Shown here: piece after piece, positions 55,373 to 62,179 of the stretch | Layout of the letters: each line of letters begins with the position of its first letter | Numbering within the stretch: position 1 is the first letter of the stretch | Assembly: GCA_937944855.1 (NCBI GenBank) | Contig: CALFAY010000021.1 | Span: forward strand, 1 to 64,000 | DNA: 64,000 nt | From: an uncultured Planctomycetota bacterium | Lineage (GTDB): Bacteria; Planctomycetota; Planctomycetia; Gemmatales; HRBIN36 | Direction: 5' to 3' | Notes under the pieces: generated by a model | What the model saw: only the letters and a program-made list of their open reading frames with translations | What the model was told of the DNA's origin: nothing | Database searches by the model: none | Translations under genes and position numbers: made by a program

Positions 55373-56137
55373 ATGCGTAAACCATTCGTTGCCGGCAATT
55401 GGAAGATGAACACCACGGCGGCGTCGGCGGAATGCCTGGCCGAGGCATTGGTGCAAAAGATCGGCCATCAGGACCGCGTCGAAGTCGCCGTCTGTCCGCC
55501 GTTTCCGTACCTGTTCCGCGTCGCTGCCAAATTGGCCGGGAGCCGGATCGCTCTGGGAGCGCAGAACTGTCATCCAGACAACCGCGGAGCATTCACCGGG
55601 GAAGTCAGCCCGATGATGCTGGTGGACGCGGGCTGTAAATGGGTGATCGTCGGCCACAGCGAACGGCGGCATCTGCTCGGCGAGAAGGACGACTTTATCC
55701 ATCGGAAGTTGGTCGGGGCCTTGCTAGCCAACCTGCACGTCATCCTCTGCGTCGGCGAAACCCTGGATCAGCGACGTTCCAACCAGACGGAAACCATCGT
55801 GGAGACCCAGTTAGCGGGCAGCTTGGAATCCATTTCATCCGATCAGCTGGCTCGGGTGGTCATTGCTTATGAGCCGGTGTGGGCGATCGGCACGGGCCAG
55901 AACGCCACACCCGATCAGGCCGAGAAAGTCCATCAGTTCATCCGTGGCTGGTTGGACGGCCAATTCGGCGAAACAGCGGCAGCCTGCACTCGGATCGTGT
56001 ACGGCGGCAGTGTCAATTCCGGCAACGCTGCGGGCCTGCTTCAGCAGCCCAACGTGGACGGAGCCTTGGTCGGCGGGGCGAGCTTGAATGCCGACGAATT
56101 CGCCGCCATCGTCAACACCGCCGGCGCGGTCAAGTAA
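55373..56137 (+). CDS. tpiA: Triosephosphate isomerase
   Basis: A 254-residue TIM-barrel enzyme interconverting dihydroxyacetone phosphate and glyceraldehyde 3-phosphate in glycolysis. Active-site residues Lys11 (AGNWKMN), His95 (VGHSERR) and Glu167 (AYEPVWAIGTG) are all present, with the phosphate-binding GGSVNSGNA and VGGASLNAD loops. Length is standard. It follows a repeat-bearing intergenic region and precedes the exported globin gene by 68 bp. Confidence 0.97.
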   Translation: MRKPFVAGNWKMNTTAASAECLAEALVQKIGHQDRVEVAVCPPFPYLFRVAAKLAGSRIALGAQNCHPDNRGAFTGEVSPMMLVDAGCKWVIVGHSERRHLLGEKDDFIHRKLVGALLANLHVILCVGETLDQRRSNQTETIVETQLAGSLESISSDQLARVVIAYEPVWAIGTGQNATPDQAEKVHQFIRGWLDGQFGETAAACTRIVYGGSVNSGNAAGLLQQPNVDGALVGGASLNADEFAAIVNTAGAVK

Positions 56138-56205: not shown

Positions 56206-57417
56206 ATGAAAAGACGCCTGATCTGGGCATTCGTGACGCTGGTCTTTTCGGTACCGGGCCTGCCGAGTTTCGCTCAGGACGCCCGCTCCGCCCAACCCGA
56301 AGCCGAAAAAAACCGCCAAGTCGAGGACGCCCTGCATCGGGATCTCGATGCCCGCATCAACAAGCAGCTCTACTTCGCCACTCTGGCCGGTGTACAGGCG
56401 TTCAATCAGCCGCGCAACGATCCAGCCACCTGTGCCGGTATCTATCTGGGCGCGCTCATCATGGCCGAGGGGCTGCTCGAGCATCGGCCCGAACTGAAAG
56501 CGAAGATCGAGCGGGAACGCAAGCAGGCCGAAACCCTGCTCAACCCCGTCGAGCGGGCCAAGGCCCTGAGACGCCTCATCGACGACACACGGGAAGAACT
56601 GGAGAAGGGACAGCGGGCTTTGCCCAATGTGCTGTGGAACCGCCTCGGCGGCGAACGGGGCGTGGCCGAGATCGTCCATGAATTCGTTGAAGCGGCGCTC
56701 AAGGATCCGGCCGTGGATCTGACCCGTGGCGGCAAGTTCCCGCTCAACGGCGAAAAGCGGATCCAGTTGGAAAAGTCGCTGGTGGATTTCATCAGTTCGC
56801 TGACGGGCGGACCCTTCCAGTACAAAGGGAAGGACATGAAGTCCGCCCACGAAGGGATGGAGATCACGGAGGAACAATTCAACGCCCTGGCCCGGCACTT
56901 TGTGGCCGTGCTTCGCAAGCACCGGGTCGTCCCGGCGGACATCGAGTTTCTTGGCACCGCCTTCGCCCTGACGAAGAAGGACATCGTCGCTGCTGAGCCG
57001 AAACCGAAAGAACAACCCAGGCCAGCGGCGGGTCTTGCCGCATCCGCGCTCCTGAAGGAGTTCGGTGGAGCGGCGGCGCTCCGGCCTGTGATGCGGGATT
57101 TCGTCGCCGCGGCCTTGCATGATCCGAAGGTCGATTTCTCTCGCGGCGGAAAGTTCGACTTCGACGCCGAAGCCCGCAAACGCCTGGAGGACAGCTTGGC
57201 TGACTACTTCGCTTCCGCTCTCGGAAACACGGATGCCTACCGTGGTCGGGACATGAAAGCGGCTCACGAGGGTATGCAGATCACCGCTGCTCAGTTCGAC
57301 GCCCTGCTCGGCCATCTCCGCGATGCCCTCAAAAAGCACAGTGTCCCACAGCCCCTGGCGGCGGAGATCGTCAAGGCATTCGAGGCCACGCGCGAGCACA
57401 TCGTCGAAAAGCCGTGA
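56206..57417 (+). CDS. Exported protein with two truncated-haemoglobin-like domains
   Basis: A 403-residue protein. A signal peptide (about 1-23, PSFAQ) and a helical N-terminal region (about 30-138) precede two homologous group I truncated-globin-like domains at about 142-262 and 278-400. Each shows the pattern LGGERGVAEIV, a GGP-type turn with Y-x-G, and DM-x-AHEGM-x-IT. The proximal haem ligands would be His215 and His354. In both domains the residue matching Tyr B10 is Val (EFVEAAL, DFVAAAL), so the distal pocket may be apolar. ATG 56206 follows AAGGAAAGGG. Oxygen, NO or haem binding in the periplasm is an inference. Confidence 0.78.
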   Translation: MKRRLIWAFVTLVFSVPGLPSFAQDARSAQPEAEKNRQVEDALHRDLDARINKQLYFATLAGVQAFNQPRNDPATCAGIYLGALIMAEGLLEHRPELKAKIERERKQAETLLNPVERAKALRRLIDDTREELEKGQRALPNVLWNRLGGERGVAEIVHEFVEAALKDPAVDLTRGGKFPLNGEKRIQLEKSLVDFISSLTGGPFQYKGKDMKSAHEGMEITEEQFNALARHFVAVLRKHRVVPADIEFLGTAFALTKKDIVAAEPKPKEQPRPAAGLAASALLKEFGGAAALRPVMRDFVAAALHDPKVDFSRGGKFDFDAEARKRLEDSLADYFASALGNTDAYRGRDMKAAHEGMQITAAQFDALLGHLRDALKKHSVPQPLAAEIVKAFEATREHIVEKP

Positions 57418-57420
57418 AAA

Positions 57421-59853
57421 CTAGCTCAGGTCGGACCATTTGCGGCCGATCCATTCCGCCGTTGCCAGGCCGATCAACAGAAGCAGCATGAGCGGGTTCC
57501 AGGGCGGGACGTCCTGGCGCTGAACATAGGGCGTCTGCCGCGGCGTGACGGCGTCGGGCAGGGTCAGGAGGTCTTCTTCCCGATAAAAGCGTCCGTGGCT
57601 GAGCGTGGCGGCGCGTCGGAGGGCGTCTTCCGCCATGCCGGCGATTTCGAGTTCGTGTCGCGGCGGATAGGTGACGCGGAACTCCAGCGAAGCCGGTTCA
57701 GGGCCTTCCAGTCGGACGGCGAAGCGGCCCACAGCCTCGTGGGGCAATAATGCCCGATACTCGCCCGGCTGTCCGGGAACCGGCTCGAAGGTCAAAGGAG
57801 TGTCGCTACGCCCGTCGGAGTCAGGCTCCAGCCGGACGAGACGACCCGGCAATGCGTCGCCGGTGACGGGAGTGAAGTTGGCATCCAGGACGCGGGCATA
57901 GACGTATCCGGGACGCCCCAGGACCGGTTCCGCACGGTCCAGACTCAGTTGCACCCGCTTCGGCCCGCCGAGCAGATGGCCTAAGCCGAGCTGGTAGATG
58001 ACCTGTCCCCAGAAGCGGCCGAAGTAGCGATCCCGTGCGTTGTACCGCCACCGCCAGGTCTCATCGGAGCCGACGAAAAGCACGGTGCCTTTGCCGTAGT
58101 TTTGCAGTGCCAGAATCGGCATCGGCTGATTGTCGCTGGTCTGGGCGGTCGGATGGACCAAGAGGGGAACCGCTCCGGGTCGCAGCCGGGTCACCGGATA
58201 CGCCCAGTGAAAACCGGGAAGTTCCCGCCAGACGCGCAGATTGCCTTCGGGATCTTCGGCCAGATTCATCACCTCATTGCGTTCGCCGAAACGGGTCAGG
58301 AGCGGCACGAACGGCTCGGTACGCCGATCGGGCGGATCGGCCGGTCGGTTCAGTTCAAACTCCACCGGCAGCAGCTCGGCCAGGGGTGTGTGAGCGAAGG
58401 AGGCGGGAGCATGTTGCCGACCGGCAATGACCACCAGCCCGCCGCCCTCGGCCACGAAATCACGGACCCACTGGGCGCGTTCGGCATCGAGTCCGTGGGG
58501 CAGTTTCGGATCGCTGATCGGAATGTCCCCCAGAATCAGAAGGTCGTAGGCGAACAACTCCTGCCGCGTCGGAGGAAATTGCGGGACGTAGGGCGGACCG
58601 GAGTTCAACGCCCCGGTATGGCCTTGGAGCAAAAGAAAGCGGGCCTCGACGCGGCGATCCCGAAGCAGGCCGGTCATCAGAAACTTGTACTCCCAGCGCG
58701 GTGTATTCTCGACGTAAATCACTTTGATCTTGCGATCCACCAGGCGGACGGGCTTGCGGATGACATTGTCATCAGCGAGCGTTTCCGGTCCGGCGAATTC
58801 GATCGCCGCGATCAGGTCCAGACGTTCTTCGTCCCGGTTTCGCTTCGTCGGCGTGAGCGTCAGCACATCGCGGAAGTCCTCGCCCTCGTTCAGCTCGATT
58901 TCCTTGCGGGCCTCCAGATCGCCAAGGCGCACTGAGAGGACCGCCTTTTTTCCGCTTAAGCCGCGGACCCGCCACCGGATCGGGACAGGCAAGGTGTCGT
59001 CGAAGAAGATGGTTTCGGGAACGGCCACGTCCTTGAGCTGGATATTTCCGACCTCGGAGCATCCGACGCCGTAGATGTGCAGCGGCACGTCGGCCTGGGC
59101 GCAAGCGGCAGCGGCTTCGTCGAGGCGGAAGCGGCTGGCGTTGTCGCGGCCGTCGGTAAACACGACGATGGCGGTGGGCGGTTCGTCACCGCTCCGTTCG
59201 AGGATTTCGCGGACGGCATCGGCCAGGGCGGTCTGTCCTTCATCCGCCAAGTACCGGCCAAGCAGATCTTCCCCGGTGCTGTGCAGACGCTGGCCGAACA
59301 GGAATGTCCTTACCGGCCCGGCTTTTTCGAGTCGCTCCAGCAGTCTGAGCCGATCGTTGGTCAGCACCGCTCGCACCAAAGCGGCACGGGACGGATGGGC
59401 TGGAATCTCGCCAGGCACGTCGGCCATCGAGGGATCGTCGCTGAGCGGCCGATCCGGCGGCACAAGGCCGAAGGCGATGGCCGAACGCAGCCGATCCGCC
59501 GGGGTAATCCGCTGGTCTTCCTGTTTCATGCTCGAACTGTTGTCCAGAAGCAGTACGACCGGCCTCGGCCGCTTGCCCCGGAAGTGGACTGTGAAGACCG
59601 GATGCAGCAGAAGCAGAACCAACAAGCCGACCAGGGCGATACGCAGACCGGCCAGCACAAAGCGTCGCAATTTGCTGAGGCCGGCGCGCTCGCTCCGGTA
59701 CAACCACACGATTCCGAAGATGGCGATTGTCAGCAGGGCCAGCATTAGGAGGACGTAGGCGGAGGAAAACGCGCCCCGAAACGCCACGTCGATCCCGACC
59801 GGAGTTGCGTAGGGAGGAGCATCCACGCCCAAAAGCCATCGCCATAAATTCAT
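57421..59853 (-). CDS. Membrane-anchored VWA-domain protein of the MoxR operon
   Basis: An 810-residue protein. N-terminal membrane segments (about 35-55 and 70-90) are followed by a von Willebrand A domain with the metal-binding DNSSSM motif near 107. A long middle region with beta-rich modules follows. The stretch around 440-490 (LLILGDIPISDPKL, VAEGGGLVVIAG) resembles a glutamine-amidotransferase-like fold. A last membrane helix near the C-terminus (LMLLLLIGLATAEWIG) ends the protein. It follows the BatA-like gene by 40 bp and is the last member of the operon. MoxR-linked VWA proteins assemble or activate envelope complexes; the client is unknown. Confidence 0.78.
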   Translation of the reverse strand: MNLWRWLLGVDAPPYATPVGIDVAFRGAFSSAYVLLMLALLTIAIFGIVWLYRSERAGLSKLRRFVLAGLRIALVGLLVLLLLHPVFTVHFRGKRPRPVVLLLDNSSSMKQEDQRITPADRLRSAIAFGLVPPDRPLSDDPSMADVPGEIPAHPSRAALVRAVLTNDRLRLLERLEKAGPVRTFLFGQRLHSTGEDLLGRYLADEGQTALADAVREILERSGDEPPTAIVVFTDGRDNASRFRLDEAAAACAQADVPLHIYGVGCSEVGNIQLKDVAVPETIFFDDTLPVPIRWRVRGLSGKKAVLSVRLGDLEARKEIELNEGEDFRDVLTLTPTKRNRDEERLDLIAAIEFAGPETLADDNVIRKPVRLVDRKIKVIYVENTPRWEYKFLMTGLLRDRRVEARFLLLQGHTGALNSGPPYVPQFPPTRQELFAYDLLILGDIPISDPKLPHGLDAERAQWVRDFVAEGGGLVVIAGRQHAPASFAHTPLAELLPVEFELNRPADPPDRRTEPFVPLLTRFGERNEVMNLAEDPEGNLRVWRELPGFHWAYPVTRLRPGAVPLLVHPTAQTSDNQPMPILALQNYGKGTVLFVGSDETWRWRYNARDRYFGRFWGQVIYQLGLGHLLGGPKRVQLSLDRAEPVLGRPGYVYARVLDANFTPVTGDALPGRLVRLEPDSDGRSDTPLTFEPVPGQPGEYRALLPHEAVGRFAVRLEGPEPASLEFRVTYPPRHELEIAGMAEDALRRAATLSHGRFYREEDLLTLPDAVTPRQTPYVQRQDVPPWNPLMLLLLIGLATAEWIGRKWSDLS

Positions 59854-59893
59854 CTGCGTTCCTCGCAGGGTACCATTGCCGCCAGACGCGAAA

Positions 59894-62179
59894 CTACGAG
59901 CCGGTGGCCCGGCCCGACAGCCAGGCCACGACGGCTTCCGCCAGGGCCACCAGCAGCACCACGGCAAGCAGCCAGCGTGTCCATTCCCAGTTCAGTCGTT
60001 GCCCGCCGCTGAACATGCTCAGGTCGTCGCCAGCGGTTAGATGGGTCGGAGAGAAACCGAGCCGTGCGTCCAGTTCGCCGTCGCTGAGGCTTTCCAGATT
60101 TTCGCTTTCCCGCAAGTCGGGCACAACGGCGAAGGGGACGGCTTGCGGGACGAGACCGGAGAGTTTCGGCGGCCCACTCGCCGGGCCCTGTTGCTGCCCG
60201 TTCGCCGGTGTTGCCGGTTGTCCGCTCGCAGCGGCCGATGGCTGTCCGCTTCCCACGTCTTCCTCCGCGGTGGGCAGCAGCTGGTACAGCCCAGCGTAAA
60301 GGGTCTCTTGAACCGTCACGACGGGCCGACCCGCCACGACTTCAGCGTTCACCACCGTTCGGTTGCCGTCCGGTCCGATCAGCGTGAACGCACTGCCGGC
60401 CTGACGAGCCAGTGGATACCAGCGGATGATTTCGCCGGCCACGAAGTTGTGGGCCTGTGTCTGCTCTTGGAGGAGATGGCCGAGCGTGACGTGGACAAAG
60501 GGCAAGAACGTGGGCAGGATCGGCCAGACCGTCCACGACGTATCCGCGCTGGTGGTGACGAGAACCACGGCTCCCTGGCCGAAACGATGTCGGACCACGG
60601 CCGGTTGTCCGTCGCTGTAGCGAAGCAGGATCGCTGCCGTGTCCGCCAGCTGTTCCAGCCGCACATACTGATCTACTTCCACCTGGCCGATGCGATTCAA
60701 GGGTTCTTCCCGAAACCCGGCCAGATAGCCTTGCGGATCGCAGGTGCTGGGATCGAGCCGCACGGGCTTGTCGTTCGGAAGCCGAACCACGTCGCCGAGC
60801 CGACTGGGCAGCAGAGCGTGTTTTTGCACCAGGCTTTGGTTGTAGATCATTGGGTTGACCTGATCGCCGAGGAAGATCAGCAGGCCCTTGCCGGATCGGA
60901 CAAAGTCGGCCAAGCGGTCCACGAACTCTGGTCCGAGCACTTCGCCCTCGGCCGTCGAGGAGCCGAGGCGGACGTTGTTGAGGATGCACACGTCCTTGTC
61001 AGCCAGCAGGGCCGGGGCGGCTTGACGCGGCGTCACCACGCGGGGCTGGATCGGATACTTGCCCCAGGCGATTTCCGGCACGGGCCGCAAACTATGCAAC
61101 AGGAAGAAGCTGCTCGATTTGTCCGGTTGCCGCTCATTAGGTCGTCCGTCCACCACCAGAACGCGAACCTGATCCCGGACCAGCAGCACCTGGTCGAAGG
61201 CGTTGTCCGGAGAGAGGTCATCACTTCCCAGACGAGCACGGATCCGATGCAAGCCGGGCTTGTCGAAGCGGGCCGTCAGGCTGACAGCTCGCGTCTCGCC
61301 GGGACCCAGGACCGGCAAGACCTGGGTATCGCTCTGTCCGGCGGCTTCCAGCGTGACGGAAACGTTGGCCAGCGGTTCGCGCGTGGTATTGCGAACCAGG
61401 ATCGCCAGGCCGATCCGTTCCCCAGCGTGCGGAATGCCTGATTGCGGCTGAATGCCAGCCACGGTGGCATTGCGAAGCGGACGATTACCGCAGCGGACCA
61501 GATAGACCGAGGCCAGTCGGCTCAGCGAACGCAGCTTCTCACCCACGGCCGACTGTTGCCTTTCAAAGCCGAGGGCCTGCATGTCGCTGAAGAGGTACAG
61601 TTCCTTGTTGGCCGCCTGGCCCAGGCGCAGCGCCTCTTCGGCTTCCAGAAGTCCCGGCAGATGGTCGGTACTCAGACTGGTGGCGCGGAGGTCGTTGACG
61701 ATCTGACGCGCTTGGCCCAGCTGAGAAGGCGACTTCGGCCCCAGGAGCGTTGCCCTATCTGCGGATTGAATGATTTGCACGGTCGAATCGCGGGGAAGGT
61801 GGTCGATGATCGTCGAAGCAGCTTGCTTGGCCCGTTCCAACCGGGTCATCGGACCGTCGGCGGCGTCCATGCTGTAGCTGGTGTCGAAGACGAAGACGGC
61901 ATCCACGGCGTCGCTGGCGGATGAACCGGCGTTGGCGGTCGAACGGCTCACCGGACGGGCAAAGGCCAGGGCCAGCAGAAGCAGGAGCATGATCCGAAGG
62001 GCCAACAGCAACCACTCCTGGAACTTCAAACGGCGGCGCGTCTGCTCGATGCTCTTGCGTAAAAACTCCATCGCAGCCCAGGGCACCCGGCGGAAGCGGC
62101 TGCGGTAGAGAAAATGGAGGATGATCGGGATGGCGACGGCCAGCGAACCCAGAAGCATCAAAGGTGCCAGGAACGTCAT
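59894..62179 (-). CDS. BatA-like membrane protein with VWA domain
   Basis: A 761-residue protein. Its N-terminus is the aerotolerance-regulator type: TFLAPLMLLGSLAVAIPIILHFLYR, then a second membrane helix near 60-77. The VWA domain begins VDAVFVFDTSYSM at about 92-104, with the MIDAS DxSxS motif. A DUF-like amidotransferase-fold region lies near 350-470. The final membrane helix is WLLAVVLLVALAEAVVAWLSG. It is the third gene in the MoxR-DUF58-BatA-VWA order, about 100 bp after the DUF58 gene. The family is linked to envelope stress or complex maturation, but no client is known here. Confidence 0.82.
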   Translation of the reverse strand: MTFLAPLMLLGSLAVAIPIILHFLYRSRFRRVPWAAMEFLRKSIEQTRRRLKFQEWLLLALRIMLLLLLALAFARPVSRSTANAGSSASDAVDAVFVFDTSYSMDAADGPMTRLERAKQAASTIIDHLPRDSTVQIIQSADRATLLGPKSPSQLGQARQIVNDLRATSLSTDHLPGLLEAEEALRLGQAANKELYLFSDMQALGFERQQSAVGEKLRSLSRLASVYLVRCGNRPLRNATVAGIQPQSGIPHAGERIGLAILVRNTTREPLANVSVTLEAAGQSDTQVLPVLGPGETRAVSLTARFDKPGLHRIRARLGSDDLSPDNAFDQVLLVRDQVRVLVVDGRPNERQPDKSSSFFLLHSLRPVPEIAWGKYPIQPRVVTPRQAAPALLADKDVCILNNVRLGSSTAEGEVLGPEFVDRLADFVRSGKGLLIFLGDQVNPMIYNQSLVQKHALLPSRLGDVVRLPNDKPVRLDPSTCDPQGYLAGFREEPLNRIGQVEVDQYVRLEQLADTAAILLRYSDGQPAVVRHRFGQGAVVLVTTSADTSWTVWPILPTFLPFVHVTLGHLLQEQTQAHNFVAGEIIRWYPLARQAGSAFTLIGPDGNRTVVNAEVVAGRPVVTVQETLYAGLYQLLPTAEEDVGSGQPSAAASGQPATPANGQQQGPASGPPKLSGLVPQAVPFAVVPDLRESENLESLSDGELDARLGFSPTHLTAGDDLSMFSGGQRLNWEWTRWLLAVVLLVALAEAVVAWLSGRATGS

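Follow-up and report, generated by a model that had tools for sequence, protein, structure and literature searches.

What would a planctomycete do with two truncated haemoglobins (trHbs) apparently carried out of the cytoplasm on a single chain? The window, by which we mean the whole 64,000-nucleotide stretch of DNA analysed here, contains a gene that raises this question. It opens behind the purine-rich leader AAGGAAAGG and encodes a protein that comprises, from N to C terminus, a Sec signal peptide, a four-helix N-terminal domain (NTD) and two group I trHb (trHb1) domains (Table 1). The signal peptide was read by eye from an MKRR start, a hydrophobic core and a PSFA/QD junction. Against the copy of the gene in a congener (G001), dN/dS is 0.04 for the NTD, 0.08 for globin 1 and 0.06 for globin 2. 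These low values argue that the gene is real and constrained, and no other part of the protein is under purifying selection as strong as that on the NTD.

Table 1. Features of the globin gene and its neighbours, in window coordinates
Feature	Position	Strand	Residues	Remarks
Triosephosphate isomerase-like gene (tpiA)	55373..56137	+		Upstream neighbour; ORF translation recognised by reading
Globin gene (ORF)	56206..57417	+	403 in all	ATG at 56206; TGA stop at 57415-57417
Sec-type signal peptide	56206..56274	+	1-23	Predicted cut after SFA; by sequence inspection
NTD four-helix module	56335..56613	+	about 44-136	Cys76; HRP motif at 93-95
trHb1 domain 1	56626..56991	+	141-262	PF01152, GlbN residue mapping, Foldseek to trHb1
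Pro/Lys-rich inter-globin linker	56992..57039	+	263-278	Model confidence low at 265-271; fast-evolving
trHb1 domain 2	57040..57411	+	279-402	PF01152, residue mapping
Two long ORFs	57421..62179	-		By reading, resemble VWA-domain/BatA-type membrane proteins; converge on the globin gene

The surroundings of the gene gave little guidance. tpiA ends 68 bp before the globin ATG and the two are possibly co-transcribed; in G001, an upstream out-of-frame reading looks like the end of the same tpiA gene. A divergent gene for an HtrA-type trypsin-like protease adjoins the NTD-globin gene in eight relatives (L071, L072, L074-L079). No operon partner for NO or CO metabolism is conserved in the flanks examined, and genes for redox proteins, sensors or haem transport do not regularly neighbour the globin gene. 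We rejected the neighbourhood as a clue to function, since it holds no conserved partner and the HtrA-like protease and tpiA are uninformative. A gene that flanks the globin gene at L066 resembles one of the window's two VWA/BatA-like ORFs.

Two globin domains and their haem pockets

The original prediction, made from the window alone, was of two group I truncated-globin domains in one secreted chain, and it had proposed a search with the Pfam Bac_globin model (PF01152) as a check. Searched as separate pieces, both domains exceeded the 21-bit cut-off (domain 1, 40.2 bits, E 4.6e-10; domain 2, 46.9 bits, E 3.7e-12), and the genome has no other PF01152 match. A phmmer search of the PDB with the protein returns group I trHbs, and the top Foldseek matches to an AlphaFold (AF2) model are all trHb1, with TM scores, normalised to the target, of up to 0.89 (best 0.88-0.89). 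The modelled domains have the 2-on-2 globin fold of group I trHbs; the model as a whole has a mean pLDDT of 86 and a pTM of 0.45, low enough to make the modelled arrangement of the domains relative to one another untrustworthy. An AB Gly-Gly motif and AspB16 are present in both domains, and the EF motif reads GG in domain 1 and GN in domain 2. Two group I globin domains in one chain are confirmed by these results, and the Sec-type N-terminus, as inspected, supports secretion. The further claim that such a pairing is unusual holds only in part: the tandem is real, but its rarity is tempered by the order, where PF01152 is found in 61 of 102 genomes and 12 of those 61 have at least two globin domains in one reading frame.

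We mapped the pocket residues by alignment on the sequence of M. tuberculosis GlbN. On this alignment, domain 1 has V161 at B10, L188 at E7, L192 at E11 and the proximal HisF8 at H215; the equivalents in domain 2 are V300, L327, L331 and H354, and position 46 (CD1) is uncertain owing to a CD-loop insertion. It had been foreseen that both globins would keep the proximal His and carry Val at the Tyr B10 position, as they do. The accompanying expectation of altered oxygen stabilisation gains support, with Leu also at E7 and E11 and, through the loss of the E11 Gln, an entirely apolar distal site; neither domain has a hydrogen-bond donor at B10, E7 or E11. PheB9 is retained in both domains, but the PheB9-TyrB10 pair, which is common though not absolute in group I trHbs (PMC4720485), is incomplete because B10 is Val. 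Ser stands at E10 in both domains, in place of the basic residue to which a supporting part in trHb haem binding is ascribed (PMC4720485); a basic E10 is a supporting trait of this family, not a defining one. Judged by its residues, the protein stands as an atypical group I member in which B10 is not Tyr. Among the best PDB matches is GlbN TyrB10Phe/GlnE11Val (2gl3), an engineered analogue of the apolar pocket.

The N-terminal module

A helical N-terminal region had also been predicted, and it proved to be a confidently modelled four-helix domain (AF2 pLDDT 96.1) as well as a phylum-wide module. Neither Pfam nor NCBIfam has a match to residues 44-136, and comparison with the PDB gave nothing significant, either by sequence (best E 0.18) or by fold (the best Foldseek hit, a designed-binder complex, has E 0.53). 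We rejected a TPR or other known helical repeat, for which there was no Pfam, PDB sequence or fold match, and a c-type or b562-like cytochrome, for which there was no CxxCH and no significant structural match. The core of the four-helix domain conserves the pattern G...N...C..Y...A..LR...D, which the window copy carries. In an alignment of NTD copies (A5), G24, N29, Y42 and R84 are invariant, and Cys76 is present in at least 90% of the copies, not in all.

The NTD is not specific to globins, as its occurrence with other exported domains refutes that idea. With a profile built from the order's own copies, 73 of 102 genomes in that order gave a match; a wider profile matched 42 of 199 planctomycete genomes across the phylum. 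Profile searches place copies beside fasciclin (FAS1) domains in other planctomycete families, and Pfam identified fasciclin and CIA30 in the NTD proteins of L131 and L132, fasciclin in L139 and L157, and fasciclin and SOUL in L136 (the same place as L226). The 25 NTD loci that we examined were the window itself and 24 others, all with FAS1 and/or CIA30, and 7 of the 25 have a SOUL-like domain, these three domains being assigned by small local profiles. Fusions in the order FAS1, NTD, SOUL-like domain are found in several planctomycete families (L226, L231, L234, L235, L236, L239, L242). Within the order, the NTD is followed by carboxypeptidase-regulatory-like β-sandwiches at L097-L099, L144-L146 and L150, and it stands in tandem at L140, L141 and L143. 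The last three loci, like L154 and L155, have two tandem modules and a third, degenerate-looking copy upstream, and no partner domain was recognised in them.

Among 249 genomes from the phylum of G493 (a Contendobacter record), none contained the NTD in a search run without a positive control, and a search of viral contigs and plasmids returned nothing. We found no paper in an open library on exported planctomycete trHbs or on the NTD, an absence that such a search leaves unproven. The NTD is apparently an undescribed exported planctomycete domain.

Duplication, export and loss of the proximal histidine

The window protein is not isolated but belongs to a family that spans the order (Gemmata and relatives); of 61 near relatives searched, 44 had matches. 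A signal peptide followed by the NTD and one to three globins occurs in records titled Gemmata, Gemmataceae, Limnoglobus (L073 is the homologue in Limnoglobus roseus) and Fimbriiglobus, and in related MAGs, one of which has three globins (L063, the same place as L005 of G015); a Sec-like N-terminus is present in nearly all NTD-globin relatives. In a tree of the individual domains, with several of the relevant forks only moderately supported (SH-aLRT 83-100), tandem partners cluster with each other in the window genus, in L024, L166, L070, L109, L067 and L015, and partly in L005; outside the NTD family they also do so in L034 and L041. This pattern suggests that the tandem globins were duplicated repeatedly and independently, in about eight lineages. 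Homogenisation of an older duplication would give the same clustering of partners. At L081 (9584-10432), a globin of the NTD-family type lies behind a Gly/Cys-rich region and the NTD is absent.

The window globins fall in a large, largely exported trHb1 clade in which B10 is not Tyr (SH-aLRT 95, 85 rows). The same clade takes in lipoprotein trHbs and exported ones whose records bear the titles of proteobacteria, Rokubacteriota and other planctomycetes. In a sample that was drawn by similarity, with signal peptides called by a simple hydropathy rule, the exported domains comprise 80 with a non-Tyr B10 and 3 with Tyr, compared with 13 and 25 among domains without a signal peptide, and an all-apolar pocket like the Val/Leu/Leu of both window domains is found in 72 of the 83 exported domains. 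A convergent link from export to loss of TyrB10 is unproven, as parsimony gives about three B10 changes and an independent-pairs test is powerless. Because of the similarity-drawn sample, the simple signal rule and the few changes, we read the skew as shared ancestry and not as demonstrated convergence. The exported trHbs at L040, L043 and L047 are exceptions to the apolar trend, with a polar Tyr/Gln/Gln pocket, and in front of their globins stands a short VCPISGKPADP stretch that, as read, resembles a YHS-type domain. At L093 (7746-8411), an exported protein has a weak cytochrome c match, with CxxCH present, and then a trHb domain.

HisF8 is kept in 50 of the 58 NTD-linked globin domains analysed. 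Eight NTD-globin proteins, which lie on three branches of the tree, have Leu, Phe, Met or Ala in its place. The first branch (L025, L026, L027, L029, L112) has Trp at B10 and at position 119, the second (L082, L083) has Trp at aligned position 46, and the third (L031) has Trp at aligned position 57. These bulky pocket residues resemble the filling of a vacant haem cavity, which would indirectly support the presence of haem in the members that keep the His. Over a list of pocket positions that we drew up ourselves from trHb structures, the excess of changes in the His-less lineages was not significant (Mann-Whitney p 0.08 and 0.11) and is at most suggestive. Since eight relatives have lost HisF8, the NTD-globin family appears to tolerate haem loss, and a haem-free role is possible in some members.

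Function and relation to known systems

Published work on trHbs indicates how an apolar pocket is likely to behave. Apolar replacement of B10 or E11 speeds O2 association (k_on), highly hydrophobic pockets have a predicted O2 k_off of up to 10^4 per s, and the binding of CO and NO is almost independent of the pocket (PMC4720485). The apolar pocket, taken with these kinetics, speaks against tight storage of O2 and also against NO dioxygenation of the GlbN kind. The original prediction had listed NO or oxygen sensing, haem transport and electron transfer as possible tasks, and these stand as conjecture. We favour over four alternatives, with a probability of roughly 0.45, an exported haem b protein that prefers NO or CO to O2 and is borne on a modular envelope domain. 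The soluble protein would be exported to the planctomycete envelope with cleavage of its signal peptide, and the four-helix NTD may serve as an anchoring or interaction module. Each trHb1 domain would bind one haem b via HisF8, as the conserved His and the fold suggest. Because Val B10, Leu E7 and Leu E11 offer O2 no hydrogen bond, weak binding and rapid release of O2 are expected, whereas NO and CO would still bind. The likeliest role would be to bind or buffer NO and CO in the periplasm, on the principle of cytochromes c', with the number of globin domains adjusting the capacity. A haem b function is favoured by the frequent retention of HisF8, the low dN/dS in the three domains and the NTD-SOUL fusions elsewhere; it is weakened by the Ser at E10, the loss of HisF8 in eight relatives and the lack of an operon partner.

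Those losses could also reflect a structural or adhesive role that needs no haem, in which the globin folds are repeated helical modules on an envelope scaffold and HisF8 is a relic in some proteins. The eight relatives without HisF8 retain the fold and the NTD, a basic E10 is missing from the window globins, the NTD carries FAS1, CIA30 and β-sandwich domains that require no haem, and the number of globins ranges from 1 to 3. We nevertheless consider a haem-free role unlikely, as most NTD-linked domains and both window domains have HisF8, under purifying selection, and bulky pocket substitutions occur in the His-less members. Capture, storage or delivery of haem in the periplasm, with the NTD docking onto a partner, would suit a module that occurs near SOUL haem-binding domains (7 of 25 loci, with a Pfam check on one) as well as trHbs, and tandem globins would raise the capacity for it. 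However, haem uptake and haem lyase genes were not recognised in the flanks, most NTD partners are FAS1 or CIA30 rather than haem proteins, and SOUL is here a presumed haem binder, which leaves haem handling quite unlikely.

A redox or electron-transfer role in the periplasm, as a peroxidase, a nitrite reductase or in terminal O2 reduction, has a precedent in the periplasmic pentaheme cytochromes of cable bacteria, which have one or two trHb domains (PMC11976967), and the cytochrome c-trHb fusion at L093 is in keeping with it. Neither the chain nor its vicinity contains a c-type haem motif or a reductase, however, and peroxidase chemistry is poorly served by a pocket that lacks polar and aromatic residues (PMC4720485), making this role very unlikely. 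We give almost no credence to an O2-dependent NO dioxygenase like mycobacterial GlbN: the fold and group are the same, but that reaction requires strong O2 stabilisation (PMC4720485), and Tyr B10 and Gln E11 are replaced in both domains.

Beyond the window protein, we put forward, as a tentative and somewhat doubtful idea, that envelope proteins (trHb, SOUL, FAS1, CIA30) are docked or assembled by the NTD, a new planctomycetal module that is exported. In the Gemmata order the NTD would have recruited a gas-selective, O2-rejecting trHb that was repeatedly duplicated and, in some lineages, became haem-less and was repurposed. The protein unites an apparently undescribed exported domain with a mostly exported trHb subclass whose pocket is naturally apolar, a natural counterpart of engineered GlbN pocket mutants. 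Such a subclass would offer a test of whether, outside the cytoplasm, haemoglobins have evolved away from O2 and towards NO or CO. Additionally, recurrent tandem duplication and apparent haem loss in one family would allow functional change in globins to be compared within it.

Several known systems share part of this design. Group I trHbs such as M. tuberculosis GlbN (1idr), Shewanella benthica trHbN (8ugz) and Paramecium Hb (1dlw) have the same fold (TM 0.79-0.89), Pfam family, PheB9, HisF8, AB Gly-Gly and AspB16, whereas the window protein has two domains per chain, a signal peptide, the NTD, a CD-loop insertion, a Val/Leu/Leu pocket in place of Tyr/Leu/Gln and a non-basic E10. The exported or lipoprotein trHbs at L086-L091 and L160-L161 belong to the same clade and have the same apolar type at B10, E7 and E11, but they are mostly single-domain proteins without the NTD, lipid-anchored or free. 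To judge by the title of Hade et al. (2017, IUBMB Life 69:479; cited in PMC7082302), multidomain trHbs with tandem globin units are a reported class, and the window protein resembles it in having tandem trHb units in one chain. The cable-bacterial lPHCtX (PMC11976967) is likewise periplasmic, a location that is predicted for the window protein, and carries one or two trHb domains as part of a larger protein; its partner is a multihaem cytochrome, unlike the helical module without CxxCH found here. Cytochromes c', exported haem proteins described as putative NO binders (PMC10318465), are an analogy only, having unrelated folds and covalent haem c. Tandem and periplasmic trHbs have already been reported, and the newest element of the window protein is its NTD.
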